Shown one piece after another: positions 10,741 through 50,197 of a DNA stretch of 64,000 nucleotides. This DNA is from Betaproteobacteria bacterium (GTDB lineage Bacteria; Pseudomonadota; Gammaproteobacteria; Burkholderiales; Burkholderiaceae_A): contig JAOINB010000001.1 in assembly GCA_028139135.1 (NCBI GenBank), positions 109,171 to 173,170 on the forward strand, given 5' to 3'. How positions within the stretch are numbered: position 1 is the stretch's first letter; each line of letters starts with the position of its first letter. The translations under genes were made by a program, and so were the position numbers. The notes beneath the pieces are model-generated. The model ran no database searches and was not told where the DNA came from. It worked only from the letters and a program-made list of their open reading frames with translations.

Positions 10741-11217
10741 ATGTTTTTTGGACAAAACAGACAAAAGTCTGTATCTACAGAGACACTTGCCACTCTAATG
10801 GATGCATCGGTAAAAATAAAAGGGGATTTTTATTTTGACAAAAGTGCTCGAATAGATGGAGAAATTATAGGAAATATTAAAGGTCCTAAAACCAAGTCAA
10901 GTGCATTGATAGTCGGTCCTAAAGCAAGGATAGAGGGGGATATTCTATGTCATAGTGTAGTTGTTTTAGGAACAATACTGGGAAACATTGAGTCAGATCA
11001 CCTAGAGGTTAGATCGGGGGCAACAATAAGCGGAGACGTTAAATATTCCGTTATTGAGGTTCATCAGGGTTCTAATATAAATGGCAGGATGATTATCCTA
11101 AACTCCGAACAAGCCAATGACTCAAACGCTCATAACCCTAATGCTACTCAAAGCATTGACAAAAAAGACAAACAAACAAAAACTGGAAACATTCCAAAAA
11201 TCAAAACAATTATTTAA
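10741..11217 (+). CDS. Bactofilin (polymer-forming cytoskeletal protein)
   Basis: 158 residues. The core (about 25-125) is a right-handed beta-helix built of short repeats with regular small and hydrophobic residues: VKIKGDFYFDKSARIDGEIIGNIKG, ALIVGPKARIEGDILCHSVVVLG and LEVRSGATISGDVKYSVIEV. Flanking tails are disordered and polar, which is the bactofilin plan. Bactofilins self-assemble on the inner face of the membrane and position wall enzymes, and here the M23 peptidase two genes upstream is the likely client. The last 8 bp overlap a convergent small gene. Confidence 0.88.
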   Translation: MFFGQNRQKSVSTETLATLMDASVKIKGDFYFDKSARIDGEIIGNIKGPKTKSSALIVGPKARIEGDILCHSVVVLGTILGNIESDHLEVRSGATISGDVKYSVIEVHQGSNINGRMIILNSEQANDSNAHNPNATQSIDKKDKQTKTGNIPKIKTII

Positions 11218-11374
11218 TATTTTTTTTTCTATTTTGTTTAAAGCTATCAAGAAAAGCTAAGAATGCTCCAACAAAGAGTACTAACTGCAATGGAACCTCC
11301 CAAATGGAGAAAAAGAAAACTGCCATGAAGAGACAAAAAATAAGTAAGCCTATGTACCTAATAAAAAAATTCAT
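11210..11374 (-). CDS. Small membrane protein, 54 residues
   Basis: The frame runs from ATG at 11374 to TAA at 11210. It begins MNFFIRYIGLLIFCLF and ends in a basic tail (SFKQNRKKNIK). Residues 5-24 and 28-44 are hydrophobic, suggesting two membrane helices with a short WEVPLQ turn. It starts 20 bp after the stop of the amidase-like gene and would be the last gene of the TRAP operon. Its 3' end overlaps the bactofilin stop by 8 bp. No family was recognised. Evidence is limited to an open frame, its position and sensible hydrophobicity. Confidence 0.45.
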   Translation of the reverse strand: MNFFIRYIGLLIFCLFMAVFFFSIWEVPLQLVLFVGAFLAFLDSFKQNRKKNIK

Positions 11375-11394: not shown

Positions 11395-12609
11395 TTAAAG
11401 TGCCTTTAAATAATAATCTACCACACTCACTAACTTATCATCTCTTTTTTTACAACCGACAAAAAAAAGCATCGGTTTTGTTTCTTTTCCGCCCGAAAAA
11501 TCAAGGGGCACTCCCACAATAGGAAAGCCAAAAAGATAAAGTAGTCTTAAAAGCTTGTACTCAAAGTTATTCTCGATTGCCTCTACAGCATCAAACTTTA
11601 GCATTATTACATCGCTTGTATCTAAAAAATCCGAGATGATTGTTTCAAAGGGAGAGTTGTCATATTTCCGTCCTAACGTATTTTCTCTTTCGGTACATCC
11701 AACTTCTAACTCGCTATTGTCAAAATTATACAAGGAAGTTAATTCATCTATATCAAAAAACTCAGAAAGTTCTACATTGTCTATATAAAAATAATCCTTC
11801 GCCATCGTATCTGCAATCCAGACAGAATCACTATTCTGATAATTATTAGCATCTAATTTTTCACTTAGAAACAAGACCCTTGGTTTAAACACTTTTAAGT
11901 AATTTTGTTCGACTAACAACCTCTTCTTTAAAGTTCTTTTAAGAATTTCATCATGTCCATCATCTCCGCTACAAACCTGACAAAAAAGACACAAGTCTTT
12001 CAAATTTCTTGCAAAAAAAACAAGCCTCTTATTTGGACTTTTTTCGATACTCAAACCAGTGTATGGAACCGTACTTCTTGACGGCACAAAAGTGAATACG
12101 CCCGAACGGAACGTTTGGTACATCCATTCAGAGTTCGAATTGCCACCTAAGCCCAAAGGGGTGAGCCCATAGCAAACTGCAAGCGATACCTTACAATGTT
12201 TTCCAATATCTTGCTCTATTTCAAAAGAATACAGTTTTGACTCATTTTCCAGACAGTCGCTACTTTTGCCCGTTGTACATAACAGCAAGGCGCCTTCAGC
12301 AAAAAGTCTCCGTAATATTGTCACATCATAGAGACTCAGATAATCCGAGTGAAAGTCAGTATTGGCGAAACTCTCACTTATTGCAAAAGGAACTCCAAAC
12401 AACTTTCCTAGTATCTCGCCATTTCTTTTCTTCGATAATAAGCTATCAACCTGAGCCATAAATTCTTGTTCAAAAAAAAATGAACAAACCTTATATTTTT
12501 CGTTTACCTCATAACCACGGGAGAATAAGGTTTTCGAAAATTTTTGCACACAAAACTGTCCTTTATTTAACCCATCCCTGATGTCATATCCACTAAACTC
12601 GGTTACCAT
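11395..12609 (-). CDS. Amidase-fold protein with a broken catalytic triad (pseudo-amidase)
   Basis: 404 residues. It follows the amidase-signature family from end to end: GVPFAISESF near 72-81 (usually GVP-AVKD-), DVTILRRLFAEGALLLCTTGKSSDC near 95-119, SGVFTFVPSRSTVPYTGL near 169-186, and the closing LLYLFGFPIVGVPLDFS. The catalytic lysine position holds Ser (about S78), the Gly-Ser-rich loop with the cis-Ser is replaced by IGKHCKVSLAV (136-145), and the DTGGS loop reads GGNSNSEW (155-162). It should not work as a normal amidase. It lies 9 bp after dctM, so a role tied to the TRAP substrate is possible; a decaying enzyme is the alternative. Confidence 0.65.
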   Translation of the reverse strand: MVTEFSGYDIRDGLNKGQFCVQKFSKTLFSRGYEVNEKYKVCSFFFEQEFMAQVDSLLSKKRNGEILGKLFGVPFAISESFANTDFHSDYLSLYDVTILRRLFAEGALLLCTTGKSSDCLENESKLYSFEIEQDIGKHCKVSLAVCYGLTPLGLGGNSNSEWMYQTFRSGVFTFVPSRSTVPYTGLSIEKSPNKRLVFFARNLKDLCLFCQVCSGDDGHDEILKRTLKKRLLVEQNYLKVFKPRVLFLSEKLDANNYQNSDSVWIADTMAKDYFYIDNVELSEFFDIDELTSLYNFDNSELEVGCTERENTLGRKYDNSPFETIISDFLDTSDVIMLKFDAVEAIENNFEYKLLRLLYLFGFPIVGVPLDFSGGKETKPMLFFVGCKKRDDKLVSVVDYYLKAL

Positions 12610-12618
12610 GTCGCCTTA

Positions 12619-14028
12619 TTACTCCGCAAAAAAACTGGGATCGATTACATTCGGATCCTCCACATCGACCGTTACCTCTTCGGTATTAACTGAGTAAAAA
12701 TAATCCGGTAATGCAGTAACGATTTTAGGTTGTACATATACCAATACCAATGACAACAAAACCATTGACAAGAAAGGTAAGCAACCTTTAAAGATAGTTA
12801 CGAGTTTAACTCCCGAAGGAGCAACACCTTTTAAGTAATAAGCAGACATTGCCATTGGCGGAGTCAGAAATGAAGTTTGTAAATTAATGGCAATCAAAAT
12901 ACCGAAGAAAAGCGGATCAACTCCGAAGTATCCGAGCAATGGTAAAAAAATTGGAACAAAAATTATAATAATTTCCGACCATTCTAAAGGCCAACCGAGA
13001 ATAAATATTATTAACTGGGTAAGGATTAGAAACTGGATTGTATTGATATTCAAATCAAGCATGAAATCTTTTATTAATGATTCCCCTCCGAGATAAGAAA
13101 ATACCGATGAAAATGTCCAAGAACCCACAAAAAGAAAACAGACCATAGCTGTTGTTCTCGCTGTTCGGTGGACGGATTCTCTAAGCTTTTCCCAAGTAAA
13201 TGCTCCATATGAAACCGCAAGTATAATGCTACCCAATGCTCCCATGGCTGCAGCCTCACTGGGAGTTGCCAAACCAAAGAGTATGGAACCCAAGACAGAA
13301 AACATAAGCAAAGCGAGAGGTAAAAACGAAGTTACTAATAAATATAGAGACTTGATAAAACTATATTTTTCCGCGTCTTGTAACTTTGGAGCAAGACTAG
13401 GGTTTATTACAACTCTGGTAAAAACATACAATAAATATAAACTTGCTAACAATATACCCGGGCCAATCGCCGCTGCATAAAGCTTCACAACAGAAATACC
13501 AGCGGTTGCGGCATAAACTATTAGCATTATAGAGGGTGGTATTAAAATGCCAAGTGTGCCACCTGCAGTTATAACGCCGGCAGACAATCTTTGATCATAA
13601 CCAGCCTTCAACATTGCAGGAAGGGCTAATAAACCCATAAGAGTAACAACAGCTCCTACAATGCCTGTAGCGGTTGCAAAAAGAGCGCATGTGATTAACG
13701 CAGCCAGAGCCATTGAACCTGGCAAACCTCTGAGTCCTACTTGTAAACTCAAAAACAGCCGGTCTAAAATGTTAGCCCGCTCTACCATATATCCCATAAA
13801 TAAAAAGAGTGGTACCGAAATCAAAACATCATTACTCATAACACTGTATGTATTTTGCACAAAGAGATAAAATATTTTGTTCTCAAAAAAACTCTGTATC
13901 GGATCAAAATAAGCATAAAACCCGAAAAATATTCCTACTGCCATCAATGTGAATGCAATTGGAAATCCGAGAAAAATAAATATCAGAAATAAACACAGCA
14001 TCGAAAGAGCTACGATCGGATCACTCAT
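12619..14028 (-). CDS. dctM: TRAP transporter large permease (DctM)
   Basis: 469 residues with about 12 membrane helices, forming the ion-coupled subunit of a tripartite ATP-independent periplasmic transporter. Signatures include an N-terminal FLIFIFLGFPIAFTLMAVG, the GALVTLMGLLALPAMLKAGYDQRLSAG-like segment (GAVVTLMGLLALPAMLKAGY), ILIPPSIMLIVYA and ATPSEAAAMGALG. At 469 it is longer than the classical 425-430, with an acidic, variable C-terminal tail (NTEEVTVDVEDPNVIDPSFFAE). This length fits the branch that works with TakP-like binding proteins. It is 27 bp after dctQ. Confidence 0.93.
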   Translation of the reverse strand: MSDPIVALSMLCLFLIFIFLGFPIAFTLMAVGIFFGFYAYFDPIQSFFENKIFYLFVQNTYSVMSNDVLISVPLFLFMGYMVERANILDRLFLSLQVGLRGLPGSMALAALITCALFATATGIVGAVVTLMGLLALPAMLKAGYDQRLSAGVITAGGTLGILIPPSIMLIVYAATAGISVVKLYAAAIGPGILLASLYLLYVFTRVVINPSLAPKLQDAEKYSFIKSLYLLVTSFLPLALLMFSVLGSILFGLATPSEAAAMGALGSIILAVSYGAFTWEKLRESVHRTARTTAMVCFLFVGSWTFSSVFSYLGGESLIKDFMLDLNINTIQFLILTQLIIFILGWPLEWSEIIIIFVPIFLPLLGYFGVDPLFFGILIAINLQTSFLTPPMAMSAYYLKGVAPSGVKLVTIFKGCLPFLSMVLLSLVLVYVQPKIVTALPDYFYSVNTEEVTVDVEDPNVIDPSFFAE

Positions 14029-14055: not shown

Positions 14056-14592
14056 TTATTTGCCTATCCTATGGGGCCATTTGCCCTCTTCAAGGCAAAC
14101 GATGCACCTAAAAACCTCAGCCAACCCTTGTAAAAATAATGTAATTCCTGCGAAAAATATTATCAATTTGAGTGGCCATACGGGCACATCAGCAGGACTG
14201 TTTACTGACACTTCTGAAATCAACATTGATTGGCTCCCATACTCAAATCCGGAAACGATCATTGCTGTTATACCAGGAAAGAAAAAAATTAAATAAAGAA
14301 TTAAGTCAACCTTAGCCTGAGTTGTCGGACTCCATCTTTGATACATAAAATCACCACGAACGTGTTCTCCTTTTGACAGCGTGTATGCTCCAGCCATCAT
14401 GAATAATGCGCCATATAAAATAAAACTCATATCAAAAGCCCATGAGGTGGGGCTATTAAAAAGATAGCGCATAATTACCTCATAGGATATTCCAAAAACT
14501 AAAACGATTATTGCCCAAGAAAAAGCTTCGCCAGTAGAGTGGGAAATATTATCAAAAGCCACAATTAACCTCTTCAAGGGCACTATATTCAT
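14056..14592 (-). CDS. dctQ: TRAP transporter small permease (DctQ)
   Basis: 178 residues and four membrane helices, at about 20-40, 55-75, 98-118 and 140-160. The family motif WAFDMSFILYGALFMMAGAYTLSKGEHVRGDF (51-83) is clear. It partners the large permease and binding protein in Na+-driven uptake of an organic acid. It starts 8 bp after the dctP stop and is followed by dctM, in the usual P-Q-M order. Confidence 0.93.
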   Translation of the reverse strand: MNIVPLKRLIVAFDNISHSTGEAFSWAIIVLVFGISYEVIMRYLFNSPTSWAFDMSFILYGALFMMAGAYTLSKGEHVRGDFMYQRWSPTTQAKVDLILYLIFFFPGITAMIVSGFEYGSQSMLISEVSVNSPADVPVWPLKLIIFFAGITLFLQGLAEVFRCIVCLEEGKWPHRIGK

Positions 14593-14600
14593 GTTTCTCG

Positions 14601-15806
14601 CTAGTCTCGAGGCAACTTTACTTTGAAGGTGTGCTCATAACCCATTCTAAAGTCTGCTTCATTAAAGAAAGAATAGTATGCTACTTTTTTTGCCCAGGCC
14701 TTTGCTGATGCGTTTACTTCTTTGAAAAACGGGTCTTCACTCTCCAGCCTGGCTGTTACTTTATCCCATGCTTCAAGCTGAGCCGCAAAAACTTCTCGAG
14801 ATGTCCTACTAACTCTCACCTTATCCTTTACGATTAAAGCTTGAAGATCCTTTGAATAGTTTTTCTGTGCGGTCCATGTGTTTGAGCTTGAAGCTGCCTC
14901 CGCTGCAAATTCAAGAATTGCTTTCAAATCATCGCTCAATGCATTAAATTTAGTTCTATTAAAAAGAATTTCAAAAAATTCCATAGCCTGATGAAAAGAA
15001 CCTAAGGAATAATTTTTGCATACATCCTGAGCCCCCAGTCTTCGGTCCGACGTAGGGTTATTAAATTCAAAAGCATCCAAAACGCCTCTTTCCATAGCAG
15101 GAATTATTTCACCTCCTGGTAACTGAGTAACTTTCATTCCCAACTCTTGCATCAAATCTGCTGCTAAGCCAACCGTTCTGTATTTGAAGCCTTTAAGATC
15201 CTCCTTACCCGTAGGTGGCTTTTTCTTAAACCAACCTAAAGGCTGTGTCGGCATGGGAAACGCAAAAAAACCTTTAATGTCGAGATTTAATTTTTTAAGA
15301 AGTTTTTCATAAAGTTCATAGCCTCCACCTCTCTTTATCCAACCCATCATTTGTTCCGAATTGGCACCATTAATAGGCCCTGAGCCAAATAGCGATGCAA
15401 CTTTTGATTTTCCGTACCAGTAAACGGGTACTTGATGCCCTGCATCTAGTACCCCTTTGCTAACTGCATCTGTTATTTCAAAAGGTTTCACAACAGCTCC
15501 CGCAGTTAGATAATCAATTCGAAGTCTCCCCTCAGCCATTTTGTTAACTCTATCTACATACTCTAAGGCAAATTCATTCATAATGTCTTTTGCGCCCCAT
15601 GCGCCTTGCATCTTCAGTACAACCGGACTAGCTGCAATGGAAAACATAGGTACTCCAACAATTGGAGCAACAGACGAGGCTTTTAGAGCCTTTACAAAAA
15701 ATTGCCTACGATGGCTTTTACCAGCCCTTTCGGCTGTATCTACGCTTTTTTTTTCTGATGGGTTTTCAACTCCTACCTTGCCCATACTTTTTAGTGTTTT
15801 TGCCAT
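14601..15806 (-). CDS. dctP: TRAP transporter substrate-binding protein, TakP-like (DctP)
   Basis: About 401 residues from ATG 15806, which has GGGGAA five bases upstream; an in-frame TTG at 15818 is less likely. The N-terminus carries a twin-arginine-like export signal (SHRRQFFVKALKASS, then a hydrophobic stretch to about residue 65). The mature domain fits the branch containing the 2-oxoacid binder TakP: MQGAWGAKDIMNEFA, AVKPFEITDAVSKGVLDAGH-like text, and the substrate arginine region GFKYRTVGLAADLMQELG. The sequence PAMERGVLDAFEFNNPTSDRRLG supports it. The likely substrate class is 2-oxoacids or similar carboxylates; the exact ligand is not decided here. Confidence 0.9.
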   Translation of the reverse strand: MAKTLKSMGKVGVENPSEKKSVDTAERAGKSHRRQFFVKALKASSVAPIVGVPMFSIAASPVVLKMQGAWGAKDIMNEFALEYVDRVNKMAEGRLRIDYLTAGAVVKPFEITDAVSKGVLDAGHQVPVYWYGKSKVASLFGSGPINGANSEQMMGWIKRGGGYELYEKLLKKLNLDIKGFFAFPMPTQPLGWFKKKPPTGKEDLKGFKYRTVGLAADLMQELGMKVTQLPGGEIIPAMERGVLDAFEFNNPTSDRRLGAQDVCKNYSLGSFHQAMEFFEILFNRTKFNALSDDLKAILEFAAEAASSSNTWTAQKNYSKDLQALIVKDKVRVSRTSREVFAAQLEAWDKVTARLESEDPFFKEVNASAKAWAKKVAYYSFFNEADFRMGYEHTFKVKLPRD

Positions 15807-15943
15807 ACTTTTCCCCAATTATTCACCTGAATAAATCCATGTTCGGCTGACAAATTTCTATGAACTCGTCAATTTTGCGATAATCCTAGCAAATAACTCC
15901 CTCCACCGCCATTTTCTCGTATTGATGGGAATTTTCAAACGAA

Positions 15944-17524
15944 TCATGTTCGTTCGTGAGCAAATGCCGCATCCAACAAACTACAAGTATAATCGTGTTT
16001 CGGTTGTGACAAAACATGCGATGTGAGACCGAACTCCAATACTTTACCATAACGCATAACTAGCAGTCGATGGGCAAGGGCCCTAATAACGGCAAGATCG
16101 TGGGATATAAAAAAATATGTCAAGTTTCGCTTTCGCTGCAGGTTCAATAACAAATCAATTATCTGTTTTTGCACCGATACATCCAATGCACTCGTCGGTT
16201 CATCCAAAACTAATAGTTCGGGCTCAATTACCAATGCTCTGGCAAGAGAAATACGTTGCCTCTGGCCACCAGAAAACTGATGTGGATATCGTTCAAGATG
16301 ATCCTCGGTTAACCCGACCTCTGCAATTACATTGCTACATTTTTTTTTCTTTTCGTTATTACTCATAGAAGGAAAATGTAAGGATAATCCCTCCTCTAAA
16401 ATTTCAAAAATTGTCATGCGAGGCGACAATGAGGAGAATGGGTCCTGAAAAACCATTTGAATTTTCCTGCGCAACTTAAAGAAATCACGTTTACCCATCG
16501 TAGAATACTCCTCACTCCCATATCGTAATGTTCCATAACTGTGTCCTGGAAAAAGACGAAGTAACGCCATCCCGAGACTTGTTTTTCCAGACCCAGATTC
16601 CCCGACTACCCCGAGTGTTTCACCTTTATAAATCACAAAGCTTTCGTCTGAAACGGGATACATTCTCCTAGAAGTAAAAAAACCTTTCTTGATTTTATAA
16701 AAACATGAAATATTTCGAGCTTCCAATAACACTTCTCTTTTTTGGTACGGTGCATTTAAGGCAGTTGGTCTGCTATTTAGCAATAACCTCGTATATTCAT
16801 GTTGCGGTCGCGAAAATAAATCCTTTTTCCTCTCGCACTCTATCATTTCTCCATTTTTCATAACACCAACTCTTTCTGCAAAACTTTCAACTAGTGGAAG
16901 GTCATGCGTAATGAGAAGAATTGACATCTGTTTTATTTCTTGAATTGAGTAGAGTAACTCCATAATTTGTTGACGAATCGTTACGTCCAAAGCAGTCGTA
17001 GGTTCATCTGCAATTAAGAGGTCAGGCTCACAAGCCAGCGCCATAGAAATAAGAATACGTTGTCTCTGTCCACCAGACAGTTCGTGAGGATAACATTGAG
17101 CCCTTCTGGAAGGCTCGTCAATACCGGTCATTTCTAACAGTTCGAGAACTTTTTTATTCTTTTTCTCTACATTTAACTCAGTTAGATGATTAAGCGCTTC
17201 GGATATCTGTTCTCCAACCGTATAGACCGGATTCAAAGCACTCATTGGTTCCTGGAATATCATGGATATTTTTTTTCCGCGAACAGCTCTGATATCAGTA
17301 TCTTTTGACAATAAGTCGAGATTATTCCAGTAGATCTTTCCTTCGACGGTTGCTTCTGGTAAGAGTCTCAAAATACTCATAGCGGTAACACTTTTTCCCG
17401 AACCAGACTCACCTACTAATGCGAATCTCTCCCCCTTTTCAATCTTGAAATTTAAATTTTTAACGACAGTAACCAGGTTACCCTTATCTTTAAACTTTAG
17501 AGAAAAGTTTACAAATTCAAGCAT
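15944..17524 (-). CDS. yejF: Peptide/siderophore ABC importer, dual ATP-binding protein (YejF)
   Basis: 526 residues from ATG 17524, close to E. coli YejF (529). There are two ABC domains in one chain. The first has Walker A GESGSGKS near residue 40, signature LSGGQRQR near 155, and Walker B LLIADEP. The second has GESGSGKT near 325, FSGGQRQR near 430 and LLVLDEP. It energises import of oligopeptides or peptide-linked siderophores and antibiotics such as microcin C. The start overlaps the yejE stop by one base (TAATG). An upstream frame extension exists, but it lies inside yejE and is not needed. Confidence 0.93.
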   Translation of the reverse strand: MLEFVNFSLKFKDKGNLVTVVKNLNFKIEKGERFALVGESGSGKSVTAMSILRLLPEATVEGKIYWNNLDLLSKDTDIRAVRGKKISMIFQEPMSALNPVYTVGEQISEALNHLTELNVEKKNKKVLELLEMTGIDEPSRRAQCYPHELSGGQRQRILISMALACEPDLLIADEPTTALDVTIRQQIMELLYSIQEIKQMSILLITHDLPLVESFAERVGVMKNGEMIECERKKDLFSRPQHEYTRLLLNSRPTALNAPYQKREVLLEARNISCFYKIKKGFFTSRRMYPVSDESFVIYKGETLGVVGESGSGKTSLGMALLRLFPGHSYGTLRYGSEEYSTMGKRDFFKLRRKIQMVFQDPFSSLSPRMTIFEILEEGLSLHFPSMSNNEKKKKCSNVIAEVGLTEDHLERYPHQFSGGQRQRISLARALVIEPELLVLDEPTSALDVSVQKQIIDLLLNLQRKRNLTYFFISHDLAVIRALAHRLLVMRYGKVLEFGLTSHVLSQPKHDYTCSLLDAAFAHERT

Positions 17525-18558
17525 TAACTCGCCTTCCTTGTATCCAGAGAATCTCTGAGGCCTTCGCCGATAAACACCAGTAAAACTAAGGTCAAAACTA
17601 ATACAGCAAAAGTACTCACAGAAATCCACCAGGCATCAAGATTAGCTTTACCCTGGGCCAATAGCTCCCCAAGACTTGGGGTGCTTGAGGGAACGCCAAG
17701 CCCAAGGAAATCTAAGCTGGTCAGAGCTAAAATTGCACCACTCATCCTAAATGGCAAAAAAGCTATGACAGGAGTTAGACTATTAGGCAAAACATGTCTT
17801 GTGATAATTTTCCTACTACCTAATCCTAAAGCTTTCGCAGCAGTAACATACTCTAAATTTCTATTCCTTAAAAACTCCGCCCGAACATAATCAGACAACC
17901 CCATCCAACCAAATAAGGATAAGATAAAAAGTAGAATCAACAATCCAGGTTCAAATATAGAGGCTAAAATGATCAATAAATATAATTCTGGAATTGCGCC
18001 CCAAACCTCTATAAACCGTTGTATAAAAAGGTCTGTCTTCCCAGCAAAAAATCCCTGAATTGCTCCCATGAAGACCCCAACAACTACGCCAATAACCGTC
18101 AGACAAATTCCAAAAAGAACAGAGATGCGGAATCCATATATTAATCTAGCTAAAATATCTCTTCCTCTATCATCTGTGCCGAGAAGATTAACTGAGGAGG
18201 GTGCGGCTGGATTTGGATATGGTGAGAAATAATTGATGGTGTTAAAACTGTATCTGTTCAAGGGGAAAATAGCCCAATCACTCTTATCTTCTAATAATTC
18301 CCTAATAAAAGGATCTAAATAATCCGCCGGTGTTTGAAAATCTCCTCCAAATTCGGTCTCTGGATACTCGATTATCAACGGCAAGAAAATTTTACTGTCG
18401 TAACTAAACACTACTGGCTTGTCATTTGAAAACAGCTCAGCAAACAGACTAAAGAAAAACAAAAAGCTGAAAATTACCAAAGAAAAATAAGCGCGACGAT
18501 GACTTTTAAATCTCTTCCATATTCGTTTTGAGGGGGAGGCTATTGTTATATCTGACAT
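17524..18558 (-). CDS. yejE: Peptide/siderophore ABC importer permease (YejE)
   Basis: 344 residues. An N-terminal helix (26-43, AYFSLVIFSFLFFFSLFAEL) is followed by a periplasmic insert (about 45-120) and a BPD_transp_1 domain with five helices. The EAA-type coupling loop reads EYVTAAKALGLGSRKIITRHVLPN. The LLGTDDRGRDILARLIYG segment before the core is typical of OppC/YejE. It is 3 bp from the yejB stop and is coupled to yejF by a one-base overlap. Confidence 0.93.
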   Translation of the reverse strand: MSDITIASPSKRIWKRFKSHRRAYFSLVIFSFLFFFSLFAELFSNDKPVVFSYDSKIFLPLIIEYPETEFGGDFQTPADYLDPFIRELLEDKSDWAIFPLNRYSFNTINYFSPYPNPAAPSSVNLLGTDDRGRDILARLIYGFRISVLFGICLTVIGVVVGVFMGAIQGFFAGKTDLFIQRFIEVWGAIPELYLLIILASIFEPGLLILLFILSLFGWMGLSDYVRAEFLRNRNLEYVTAAKALGLGSRKIITRHVLPNSLTPVIAFLPFRMSGAILALTSLDFLGLGVPSSTPSLGELLAQGKANLDAWWISVSTFAVLVLTLVLLVFIGEGLRDSLDTRKAS

Positions 18559-18561
18559 GAG

Positions 18562-19671
18562 TTAGCTTCCCTCAAATTTTACTCGGGGGTCAACGAATAC
18601 ATACAAGAGATCATTGATTAGTTTGGCTATCAAAGCAATCAATGAGAAAAAAAACAAAGTCCCCATCACAACGGGATAATCACGCTTGATAACTGACTCG
18701 TAAGAAAGCAGACCTAACCCATCGAGCGAAAACAACGTTTCAACCAAAAGGGCTCCGGTAAAAAAAGCACCCACGAACGCTGCTGGAAATCCTGTGATAA
18801 TAGGAATTAATGCATTCCTCAAAACATGTTTATACAAAACAAGCTTTTCATTTAAACCTTTTGAACGAGCAGTTTTGACGTATTGCTTGTTAACTTCCTC
18901 CAATATTGTATTTTTAGTAAGCATAGTAAGCGTCGCAAAACTTCCTATAACTAAGCATGTTAAAGGTAAAACAAGGTGCCAGAAATAATCCAAAACTTTG
19001 TAAAGTAAGCTCATCTCTTCCCAACCTTCGCTAGTTAGGCCTCTCAGAGGAAAAAGTTGTAAAAAACTCCCTCCTCCAAAAAATACTAAGAGAATTACTC
19101 CTAGAACGAATCCGGGGATAGCATATCCAATAATCACGGCTAGACTTGTTAATACATCAAAAGAGCTTCCGTGGCGAACAGCCTTAGCTATTCCCAACGG
19201 CAAAGAAACTAAATATGTTATGAAAAAACTCCATAGTCCTAAACTAATAGAGACCGGTAACTTTTCTTTCATTAGCTCCCATACGTCCTTGTTGTAGAAA
19301 AAACTCTCTCCCAAGTCAAATTTTAAAAAGCCAAAAATCATTTCAATAAATCTCTCGTGTGCGGGTTTGTCAAATCCATAAAGCTTTTTAATCTCTTCCA
19401 GACGATCTTCATCGAGTCCGCTTGCTCCCCTGTAAACATTACTGCCCGAGCTCTGACCGATCTCAGTTCCCGTTGTAGAGCCTGGAGTTGCAACTCCCGT
19501 GTTAACTCCCCCAAACGAAGAGTGATCACCCTCCAGCATCCTTACCATTTGCTCGACAGGTCCACCCGGCACGAATTGGATGATGATAAATGTGATAGCC
19601 AGGATACCTAATAAAGTTGGTATCATCAGAATCAAGCGTTTGAAAATATACACGAGTAACACCAGGTTCAT
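18562..19671 (-). CDS. yejB: Peptide/siderophore ABC importer permease (YejB)
   Basis: About 369 residues from ATG 19671, whose ATGA overlaps the yejA stop. The start MNLVLLVYIFKRLILMIPTLLGILAITF is the usual OppB/YejB first helix. The insert rich in Gly, Ser and Thr at about residues 45-80 is a YejB feature. The coupling loop QYVKTARSKGLNEKLVLYKHVLRNALIP is clear. Length is close to E. coli YejB (364). It forms the channel with YejE. Confidence 0.93.
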   Translation of the reverse strand: MNLVLLVYIFKRLILMIPTLLGILAITFIIIQFVPGGPVEQMVRMLEGDHSSFGGVNTGVATPGSTTGTEIGQSSGSNVYRGASGLDEDRLEEIKKLYGFDKPAHERFIEMIFGFLKFDLGESFFYNKDVWELMKEKLPVSISLGLWSFFITYLVSLPLGIAKAVRHGSSFDVLTSLAVIIGYAIPGFVLGVILLVFFGGGSFLQLFPLRGLTSEGWEEMSLLYKVLDYFWHLVLPLTCLVIGSFATLTMLTKNTILEEVNKQYVKTARSKGLNEKLVLYKHVLRNALIPIITGFPAAFVGAFFTGALLVETLFSLDGLGLLSYESVIKRDYPVVMGTLFFFSLIALIAKLINDLLYVFVDPRVKFEGS

Positions 19672-21503
19672 TGTTGGCCCCTCCTCCACCACCATGTTGA
19701 AAACGCCCAAATCTCAGACCCGTAATAAAGAGGTAATGTTTTAGGTCTTGCAAGTCTAGAATCATAAGAGACTCTATGAACAGTATTATGCCAGTGGGGA
19801 ATAACGTAATATTCATTGAGCAATACTCGATCCAGTAATCTACTAGCCGTAACGAGTTCTTCTCTACTCTCTGCTTTGACAACTCTATCAATCAGCAAAT
19901 CAACAAGCGGGTCTTTAACACCTGCATAATTCCTCGAGGCTTTCTGACCCGCAGAAATCGACGAATAACGATTGAATAATTCATTGCCTGGATTCTGCCC
20001 CGACAGGTACCAATGAACAAGCATGTCATAATCAAAATTGTCAATTCGCTGTTTGTAAAGAGACAAATCAGTTACCCGTGTCTTTAAATTAATCCCTAAC
20101 TTTTTGAGATTTCTGGCAAAAGGAGCAACAACTCTTTCCCAACCCCTAGTATCCAACAAAATTTCAAACTCAAAGCTGTTACCTTTCTTATTCTGTAAAC
20201 GCCCATTTGTTACGAACCATCCTGCCTCCTCCAATAAACCTTTCGCTCGTTTTAAATTATTACGTAATCCGTTTTTTCCACTATTTAGTGGGGGTCTGGA
20301 AATTACGTCAAGAACATTTGGATTGAACCGTATATCGGACTCTTTAACAAGTTTTGCCAACAACTGAGTCTCAGACTCAGAGGGTAAGCCAGTAGCGGCC
20401 ATAGGAGTATTGGTAAAAAACGAGTAAGACCTTTTATACTGATCATAAAAAAGCTGTCTGTTCATCCATTCAAAATCCATAGCAAGATAAATTGCCTTTC
20501 TGACACGAAAATCTGAAAACAGACTTTTACGAGTATTGAAGACATAACCCTGCATACCCGCAGGGTTGCTGTTTTTCAGTTCCTCTTTGATCTTTGCCCC
20601 GCTAACAAAGGATTTGCCCTCATAAGACCTTGCCCAAATTTTTGAAGTATTTTCATGAATAAAATCAAATTCACCAGCTTTAAATGCTTCCAATCTCGCA
20701 AATGCGTCCTTATAATACCTAAAACTTATTTTCGAAAAATTAAATTGGTTCTTCCTAACTGGATGCTTATTTGCCCAATAATCCGTCCTTTTTTCAAACC
20801 AAATTCCTTTTCCAAGTTCTATCTTTTTTATTTTATAAGGTCCGCTAGCAATTGGACCATCCGTAACAATGTCCGAGAAGCTTTCTCTATTTTCACCCCA
20901 TTTTTCAGAAAATATTGGCATTGAAGCAATAATAAAATGTAATTCCCTGTTTTTTTTTCGGAATGTAAACTTCACCTCCCTATCGGAAACTATCGATACG
21001 CCCTTGATGTCCGCCCAATAATTTTTAAAAAAAGGATTGACCCCATCACCCGAAATTAGAGTTTCATATGAGAAAACCACATCTTTTGCCAAAACAGGAT
21101 CTCCATTTGAAAATTTAGCTTCGCGGTTAAGCCTGAATGAAATTGATAATTTGTCCCTACCTAGTTTCATCTCCTCAGCTAACAACCCGTACATTGTCAT
21201 CGGCTCGTCCAAACTAAAAATTGCCAGTGGTTCAAAAATTAGATCCGAAACTCCTGCAGCAACGATTCCTCTAAGCGAAAATGGGTTTACCTTATCAAAG
21301 GTGCCCATAGATGCCATTCTTAGTTCACCACCTACTTTCGCATTTGGATCCGTATATTCAAAATAGTCAAACTCATCTGAGTATTTAGGGTTAGAACCTA
21401 AGGCCATGGATTTCACGTAAGCACAAAACCCAGAGGACCCGGTAATCAAAATAAATACGAGAAAAACGCTAAAAAGTATCCTGATATGTCCCTTTAAAAA
21501 CAC
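19668..21503 (-). CDS. yejA: Extracellular solute-binding protein, family 5 (YejA)
   Basis: 611 residues, similar to E. coli YejA (604). The signal peptide covers about residues 1-28 (ILFSVFLVFILITGSSGFCA). The mature domain has the SBP_bac_5 pattern, including NPFSLRGIVAAGVSDLIFEPL near 75 and SISFRLNREAKFSNGDPVLAKDVVFSYETL near 120. The C-terminal YYVIPHWHN supports YejA in particular. The start codon is GTG and directly abuts the stop of the second exbD. It would capture peptides or siderophore-peptides in the periplasm for YejBEF. Confidence 0.92.
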   Translation of the reverse strand: MFLKGHIRILFSVFLVFILITGSSGFCAYVKSMALGSNPKYSDEFDYFEYTDPNAKVGGELRMASMGTFDKVNPFSLRGIVAAGVSDLIFEPLAIFSLDEPMTMYGLLAEEMKLGRDKLSISFRLNREAKFSNGDPVLAKDVVFSYETLISGDGVNPFFKNYWADIKGVSIVSDREVKFTFRKKNRELHFIIASMPIFSEKWGENRESFSDIVTDGPIASGPYKIKKIELGKGIWFEKRTDYWANKHPVRKNQFNFSKISFRYYKDAFARLEAFKAGEFDFIHENTSKIWARSYEGKSFVSGAKIKEELKNSNPAGMQGYVFNTRKSLFSDFRVRKAIYLAMDFEWMNRQLFYDQYKRSYSFFTNTPMAATGLPSESETQLLAKLVKESDIRFNPNVLDVISRPPLNSGKNGLRNNLKRAKGLLEEAGWFVTNGRLQNKKGNSFEFEILLDTRGWERVVAPFARNLKKLGINLKTRVTDLSLYKQRIDNFDYDMLVHWYLSGQNPGNELFNRYSSISAGQKASRNYAGVKDPLVDLLIDRVVKAESREELVTASRLLDRVLLNEYYVIPHWHNTVHRVSYDSRLARPKTLPLYYGSEIWAFSTWWWRRGQQ

Positions 21504-48647: not shown

Positions 48648-49373
48648 CTAATCTGCGAAAATTGGATATACCCCACTTTCTGTCCATGCAAGTCCACAAA
48701 CTAGCGTATCTAACTGTATTCCTGCATCCATCCAAAATATAAAAACAAGCTTACCATCGTCTGAAATTTTGGCTATTTTACCATACGAAGAGCTTTCCAC
48801 AATTTTGACAGCCATTCTTTCTGGAAATCTAGGGACTATCACGATATTTTCAGAATTTCTTTCAACGACTGATATAGCTGGTTGCAAACAGTTAGCGAAA
48901 GAATATATTCGTTCTTGCTCGAGGTTAGTTGCTAATTTAATCCAGACTCCAAAAACCTCGTCTACCCTTGCCCCTTGCTCACAAAGACTAACTATGAGAT
49001 TTTTAACTCTTGGCGAAATAGAAACATTCTTGAGTTTCTCATAGTGCATAGCAAATGGACGAGCTCTTCGTCGTGCTAAATGTCCCCCTAGTAAGTTTGC
49101 AAGTGTTCTAATTTTTTTATCCTGAACAGTAGAGTTCGAAATATGTGACGCCAAGGAGAGCCACACCGCTGCCTCCGGACGATAGTTTTGTTGGTTTACT
49201 TCCCTGAGTTTATCCTGCCCCTTATAATCATCTGGAATCGTCTTGTTATCAGAATCTATATTTCCTTTGTTGAAAAGCTTACTAGTATTTTTAATTTTTG
49301 AGATGCCAGCAATAAGCTCATCCAATTCACTCTCAAACTCTTCTTCATGTTTCCCCACCTTACTTTTTTCCAT
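48648..49373 (-). CDS. Unknown soluble protein, third gene behind dnaQ
   Basis: 241 residues. The N-terminal 70 residues are acidic and low in hydrophobics, probably flexible (HEEEFESELDELIAGISKIK). From about 75 the protein looks folded: AVWLSLASHISNSTVQDKKIRTLANLLGGHLARRRARPFAMHYEKL is likely helical, followed by a beta-rich end with IVIVPRFPERMAVKIVES and GKLVFIFWMDAGIQLDTLVCGLAW. No signal peptide or membrane segment is seen. I do not recognise the family. It overlaps the upstream membrane gene by 14 bp. Confidence 0.6.
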   Translation of the reverse strand: MEKSKVGKHEEEFESELDELIAGISKIKNTSKLFNKGNIDSDNKTIPDDYKGQDKLREVNQQNYRPEAAVWLSLASHISNSTVQDKKIRTLANLLGGHLARRRARPFAMHYEKLKNVSISPRVKNLIVSLCEQGARVDEVFGVWIKLATNLEQERIYSFANCLQPAISVVERNSENIVIVPRFPERMAVKIVESSSYGKIAKISDDGKLVFIFWMDAGIQLDTLVCGLAWTESGVYPIFAD

Positions 49374-49911
49374 TAAATTTAAGTTTCTTTAGATCCTTAA
49401 CTATTGAGATCGACTTTTCTAACGAATCTAACGATTTCTGAGCATCATCTGCCGAATAAATCCCATTCATATCCAACATTAAGTTAAAAAGATCATGTCG
49501 AGCTGATTCAATCTCTATTAATAAACCGTCGATCTTTTCATTAACTAATCCAGAAAACTTTTGATCATTTTTTTTAAAATTTTTCTCTGTGTTCTTTTCT
49601 TCTGACTCCCTACTTATTTTTTTTATCATCAAGTCTCCACTAATATCATCCGAGCCATCCGAAAAAAATTTATATAAAAGACATGAACTTAAATACGCTA
49701 TAGAAAAGAAAGCAACAGAAAAAATCAAGCCCTTTTCATGCAAAAGTACAGATAGATCTACTGAGCCCCACCGAGGAAAATGCTGGAGATAATTTGCCAT
49801 CAATGAATTACTCATCACAGAAATATATGTTAAAACTATACCCGTTAAAAAAGATAGCAAGCCTAAATATTTCAAAAATAAAACTGTTGAGCTCTTTTTT
49901 TTTCTAATCAT
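49360..49911 (-). CDS. Unknown membrane protein with cytoplasmic helical tail
   Basis: 183 residues. Two membrane helices, at about 10-31 (STVLFLKYLGLLSFLTGIVL) and 60-82 (LIFSVAFFSIAYLSSCLLYKF), flank a short loop with HFPRWGSVDLSV. The remaining 100 residues are Lys/Glu/Asp-rich with heptad-like spacing (VNEKIDGLLIEIESARHDLFNLM, then SLDSLEKSISIVKDLKKL) and may form a coiled coil. No family was recognised. It overlaps both flanking unknown genes (8 bp and 14 bp), so the three are translated together. Confidence 0.6.
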   Translation of the reverse strand: MIRKKKSSTVLFLKYLGLLSFLTGIVLTYISVMSNSLMANYLQHFPRWGSVDLSVLLHEKGLIFSVAFFSIAYLSSCLLYKFFSDGSDDISGDLMIKKISRESEEKNTEKNFKKNDQKFSGLVNEKIDGLLIEIESARHDLFNLMLDMNGIYSADDAQKSLDSLEKSISIVKDLKKLKFNGKK

Positions 49912-50197
49912 AAACTAATCTCCGGTCAAAGGAGTCAACGAAAATAGCTCTTCCCGCATCTCCATCTCGTTGCAAAATAAAAATATAGTTTGGTTTTGTC
50001 CATGGTGACAATCCAGCATAGTTAACTTTTTGAAACAAATTACTGGGTTCTAGCAATAATGTTGGATGGCCTCCCAAAATCCGTACCATAAATACTGCTT
50101 CAAAAATACTATCCAATTCCTCCCCGCGCATAACTCTCGTAACTTCAATTTTTTTAATTGAGTATGATATCGATCGTCTCTGAAAAAGTATCTTCAT
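49904..50197 (-). CDS. Unknown small protein, first gene behind dnaQ
   Basis: 97 residues, mixed alpha/beta and basic at the start (MKILFQRRSISYSIKKIEVTR). It contains LGGHPTLLLEPSNLFQKVNYAGLSPWTKPNYIFIL and ends VDSFDRRLVYD. No signal peptide, membrane helix or known motif is seen. It begins 18 bp after dnaQ and overlaps the next gene by 8 bp. Position argues for a real gene in the dnaQ operon; the function is unknown. Confidence 0.55.
   Translation of the reverse strand: MKILFQRRSISYSIKKIEVTRVMRGEELDSIFEAVFMVRILGGHPTLLLEPSNLFQKVNYAGLSPWTKPNYIFILQRDGDAGRAIFVDSFDRRLVYD

Follow-up and report, generated by a model that had tools for sequence, protein, structure and literature searches.

Plant Toc64/OM64 carries an amidase-family domain inside an organelle protein-import receptor (PMC3877065, PMC9643744). 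As an amidase-family domain in a transport system it is the nearest functional parallel to the 404-residue protein described here, but it is eukaryotic, combines the domain with TPR repeats and a membrane anchor in one chain, and is unrelated to TRAP transport. The amidase domain of Toc64/OM64 is catalytically dead. The combination of this domain with TPR repeats in one chain does not extend to the 404-residue protein, in which no Pfam domain besides Amidase is found. GatA, subunit A of the Glu-tRNA amidotransferase, has the same fold and is the best sequence match in the PDB (E 2e-4), but its triad is intact. Among TRAP transporters, those of the TakP/SmoM type have a solute-binding protein similar to the DctP of this operon (2HZK, E 2e-35); to our knowledge, none has an amidase or pseudo-amidase subunit. 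The closest relatives are the TRAP-linked amidases of sister genera (g2 and g3), Limnohabitans, Bradyrhizobium, Rokubacteria and others. These have in common with the protein the slot after dctM, the fold, their ancestry and a small two-TM gene that comes next, but they keep the Lys, the Ser-rich loop and the Ser nucleophile, and the sister pair tested is about tenfold more constrained. In the openly licensed literature, searched for TRAP together with amidase, for pseudoamidase and for amidase-signature pseudoenzymes, neither a TRAP-linked pseudo-amidase nor the small protein was found described.

The operon is located in a stretch of 64,000 nucleotides, the window. Genomes of the genus carry G numbers, the window species being G000. 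The five genes, in the direction of reading, are:

14601..15818, (-): dctP, TRAP solute-binding protein (Pfam), with a Tat-like signal; nearest solved relative 2HZK (TakP/SmoM type)
14056..14592, (-): dctQ, TRAP small permease (PF04290)
12619..14028, (-): dctM, TRAP large permease (PF06808, 256.7 bits); dN/dS about 0.02 against G001
11395..12609, (-): pseudo-amidase, fourth operon gene; amidase-signature fold, with Lys replaced by Ser77, the cis-Ser loop lost and the nucleophile Ser replaced by Glu160
11210..11374, (-): small protein of 54 residues, fifth operon gene; two hydrophobic (putative membrane) segments; companion of TRAP-linked amidases

The pseudo-amidase gene is an intact frame of 404 codons that starts 9 bp past the dctM stop; its coordinates, strand, length, open frame and distance from dctM had all been given correctly in an earlier, sequence-only reading of this DNA. 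That reading had also made it the fourth gene of a TRAP operon. The three transporter genes are indeed present upstream by Pfam and are conserved, with omega values of 0.02–0.13, but the operon does not end there, as the 54-residue fifth gene begins 20 bp past the pseudo-amidase stop. A DctP match is found in 25 of 26 genomes of the family. A terminator scan gave nothing convincing in the gaps between the five genes, its counts being close to the shuffled expectation, and no promoter stood out clearly. An oligopeptide-type ABC transporter set (15944–21503 (-); fused ATPases, two permeases and a binding protein) immediately precedes dctP on the same strand. Since about 125 bp separate this set from dctP, joint transcription is possible.

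Homology of the protein to amidases is marginal by sequence (27.7 bits, the Pfam cut-off being 27), but it is clear from structure and from synteny with intact amidases. The AlphaFold2 model, based on a 22-sequence alignment, has a pTM of 0.84 and a mean pLDDT of 78. Its top Foldseek matches are amidase-signature proteins throughout (best E 6e-19, to GatA), and VIA-align gives a Z of 31.6 over 354 residues against the amidase 9je9 and of 30.7 against the GatA structure 2df4. The G006 protein, the most divergent of its subclade (27% identical), is modelled with a pTM of 0.79 and a similar order of elements. The amidase-signature fold, for which structure prediction had been proposed as the check, is thus confirmed, and together with the tree described below the models place the protein in the amidase-signature superfamily by descent and fold. 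A chance open frame is ruled out by the homology, the fold and the codon-position pattern.

The active enzymes of PF01425 have a Lys in the GxPxxxKD motif, a cis-Ser loop with the sequence GGSSSG and a Ser nucleophile in the D/QTxGS motif, and all three are missing from the window protein. The position of the catalytic Lys is occupied by Ser77 (GVPFAISES against GVPIALKDI), the GGSSSGSA loop is replaced by IGKHCKV, and the nucleophile Ser of QTNGS is Glu160. The first two changes are as the sequence-only reading had described them. Its third, an altered DTGGS loop, holds for the loss of the nucleophile, but the ancestral loop of this subfamily is QTNGS rather than DTGGS. Judged from these residues, the window protein has presumably lost catalysis.

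Within the genus, the loss of catalytic residues is graded when compared with the ancestral reference motifs GVPIALKD, GGSSSGSA and QTNGS. In G005 and G007 (VSD, GGSASG and GS) the Lys alone is lost, and these two are the only genus members that retain the GGSASG loop. G002 (VSG, GGVSSY and GC) has further losses, with Cys as the nucleophile. In G006, G004, G001 and the window species, Ser replaces Lys, the cis-Ser loop is unrecognisable, and Glu-Trp is found at the nucleophile. Every one of the seven members has Ser at the Lys position, encoded by AGT, AGC or TCT. Homologues next to dctPQM had been expected to lack every one of these residues if the protein was a conserved pseudoenzyme; for the Lys this is so in seven of seven, while all three features are gone only in four of the seven, the window species included. 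Contamination was considered as the origin of the intermediate forms in G005 and G007 (6–7% contaminated) and rejected, since their loci carry the genus-typical bactofilin neighbour.

At the 123 positions that are at least 90% conserved in active relatives, the four-species subclade (27–77% identity) keeps 22, mostly Gly, Pro and Asp, while 14 are newly fixed and 87 are variable. The newly fixed positions include Ser77 and Glu160, with Trp161 fixed alongside, and the residues fixed in or near the old active site are Ser77, Cys110, Glu160, Trp161 and Tyr182. Three of these, Ser77, Glu160 and Cys110, could in principle support a new catalytic activity through other residues. This seems very improbable, as the four species differ from one another at most positions where the cis-Ser loop used to be, the loss seen in the intermediate species is simply stepwise, and we know of no amidase-fold enzyme with such a set. 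The pseudo-amidase is also rich in Cys (11 of 404 residues), with 8–14 Cys in the subclade against 5–7 in intact relatives; Cys110 and Cys209 are fixed across the four species.

All genus genomes that have dctM (seven of the eight examined) carry an amidase homologue right after it; the eighth genome, which is 70% complete, has neither dctP nor dctM nor the amidase. The same slot is occupied by a full amidase of about 445–465 residues in sister genera as well as in other families of the order. A search with the intact alignment gave 80 GTDB loci. In 73 of these a dctM relative is just upstream on the same strand, and all 80 keep the Lys, the Gly/Ser-loop Ser and the nucleophile Ser; the search pattern (QTNGS) conditioned partly on the nucleophile Ser and not on the Lys. 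The seven genus sequences form one group in the maximum-likelihood tree (99/95), with G006 and G002 on long branches. Since intact-triad homologues are found in the same operon slot of sister genera, the loss is lineage-specific and started from an active-looking TRAP-linked amidase. A genome contig scan with the window protein as sole query gave no matches. The genus genomes are small (1.1–1.9 Mb), and no amidase besides the pseudo-amidase was found in them except GatA, which in the window genome is a separate intact gene (G000:C21). With GatA as the only other amidase found, replacement by another genomic amidase is rejected. Two loci have unusual arrangements. G005 has two dctPQM copies (L156, on G005:C22, and L155, on G005:C19), one of which is cut by a contig end, and the duplication probably reflects a further strain or species in this bin, which is 6% contaminated. 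A Pelagibacteraceae single-cell genome (L109) has two consecutive amidase-like frames after dctM.

Between G000 and G001, the pseudo-amidase has a dN/dS of 0.308 (dN 0.124, dS 0.404), and the LRT against neutrality is 44.3. The values for dctM and bactofilin in the same comparison are 0.018 and 0.098, while an intact amidase pair from a sister genus (dS 0.64) has a dN/dS of 0.034, a constraint about ten times stronger. In pairs deeper than G000–G001 dS is saturated, and there the LRTs (144 for G000–G004 and 163 for G001–G004) and dN alone were used. The acceleration relative to dctM is already seen between G005 and G007, where the Lys alone is lost (dN ratio about 9, against about 1–3.5 in sister-genus pairs). 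When 57 window frames are compared with the G001 contig, the median omega is 0.126 and the pseudo-amidase is fourth highest, below a spurious antisense frame, a low-dS frame and one fast gene; by this rank, it behaves as a functional gene that evolves fast. The highest credible dN/dS of the window against G001 (0.43, with 70% protein identity) is that of the frame at 49363–49914 (-), above the pseudo-amidase.

The 404-codon frames of G000 and G001 differ by no indels or gaps at 23% protein divergence, while in a neutral simulation at 0.2 substitutions per site about 10 stops arise on average and none of 1000 runs stays open. Simple recent decay, against which the sequence-only reading had argued, is ruled out by omega, the absent indels and the conservation across seven species, and dN/dS is well below 1, the value it had suggested checking. 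Intact-triad homologues in close relatives combined with relaxed selection had been named as the signs of decay. Such homologues do exist in the same slot of sister genera and the constraint is relaxed about tenfold, yet a dN/dS of 0.31 is still below 1.

The main rival explanation is a slower functional fading, in which the amide substrate is unused and the gene is on its way out, held by folding, toxicity or operon polarity constraints only. The stepwise loss of the triad would be expected in such a case, as would the rise in omega from 0.034 in the intact sister to 0.31, the small genomes with no amidase but GatA, the drift of the small partner protein and the weak constraint on residues 251–350. 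Even so, the frame is open in seven of seven species at a dctM divergence of up to about 20%, G000 and G001 are free of indels relative to each other with omega significantly below 1, new residues are fixed at former catalytic positions, and the gene is retained despite the small genomes. Fading is considered somewhat unlikely.

The constraint is unevenly distributed along the chain. Residues 1–100 and 151–250 are strongly constrained (omega 0.14–0.18), while residues 251–350 are weakly constrained (about 0.5–0.6). This pattern is more in keeping with retention of a core or interface than of a pocket. The sequence-only reading had put forward substrate binding, sensing or scaffolding as possible roles; the distribution of constraint speaks more for a part in structure or interaction than for binding of a substrate. 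The distribution also bears on whether the protein has become a binder or sensor, whose old active site would bind the imported solute or a related ligand uncleaved and signal to the transporter. The five residues fixed in or near the old site in all four species agree with such a role, but the segment 251–350, which in amidases would be expected to help form the pocket wall, is the least constrained. A sensor is less favoured because of this expected position, and since the operon is also without a regulator, this role is judged quite unlikely.

The product of the fifth gene has two hydrophobic segments, as judged by eye, and no model in Pfam or NCBIfam matches it. All seven genus genomes have a homologue at this position, as do sister genera, where the gene often has a 4-base overlap with the amidase stop, and other families of the order. 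A profile of 18 small proteins has a match following the amidase at many of the 80 GTDB loci, 43 of them within strict distance limits, a count that is exceeded once long upstream-extended frames are included. These GTDB matches range over Beta- and Alphaproteobacteria, Rokubacteria, Desulfobacterota and others. Within the order, 300 genomes contain 16 strong matches; the 15 that are evaluable all adjoin a TRAP-type amidase, and one is at a contig end. A Lys that is conserved in the Burkholderiales small proteins (FxxPYxxKL) has given way to Ser, Thr, Leu or Glu in the genus, and thus the same genus has lost a key Lys in both partners. Since the small protein evolves fast here (NG86 dN 0.13, dS 0.50), the pair could be fading together.

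The best explanation of the gene is a conserved pseudoenzyme that is most plausibly kept as a non-catalytic subunit of a TRAP-amidase-small-protein assembly, and its chances appear about even. It draws on descent, synteny, the graded loss of the triad, the retained predicted fold, purifying selection and the kept small-protein gene. The conserved pseudoenzyme proposed from the sequence is supported by the Lys loss in all seven species, the dN/dS of 0.31 and the fold: homologues with an intact triad exist, its own catalytic residues are lost, and selection maintains the gene across species. Its ancestor was an intact-looking amidase, fourth in a widespread five-gene operon of dctP, dctQ, dctM, the amidase and the small two-TM protein. 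The change of Lys to Ser occurred in the genus ancestor, and the replacement of the cis-Ser loop and the nucleophile, where Glu-Trp is now fixed, in the window subclade.

The operon-wide tie of transporter, amidase and small membrane protein suggests that the small protein may hold the amidase at the inner membrane face beside DctQM. In the active version, the amidase at the membrane near DctQM would hydrolyse imported amide compounds on entry. The dead version would serve as a structural or regulatory subunit that stabilises, docks or gates the transporter, and it may have been retained because complex formation still matters once hydrolysis is no longer needed. Hydrolysis is apparently gone, but selection still acts on the fold, the operon place and the small partner. 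Most simply read, the assembly continues to need the protein in a structural or regulatory capacity.

The comparison exposes an unannotated family of small membrane proteins tied to TRAP-linked amidases in proteobacteria and beyond, and with this tie it can be tested directly whether transporter and enzyme form a physical complex. Within one uncultured Burkholderiales genus, a graded series from the loss of Lys alone to the loss of the whole triad follows the path from enzyme to pseudoenzyme while the operon partners are strongly constrained. A more tentative proposal is that TRAP transporters of this type in several phyla may be five-part systems, in which the two-TM small protein holds the amidase at the transporter, and that in one Burkholderiales genus the amidase may have become a purely non-catalytic subunit. 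If true, this would show a protein of the amidase fold being recruited in bacteria to serve as a subunit of a transporter.
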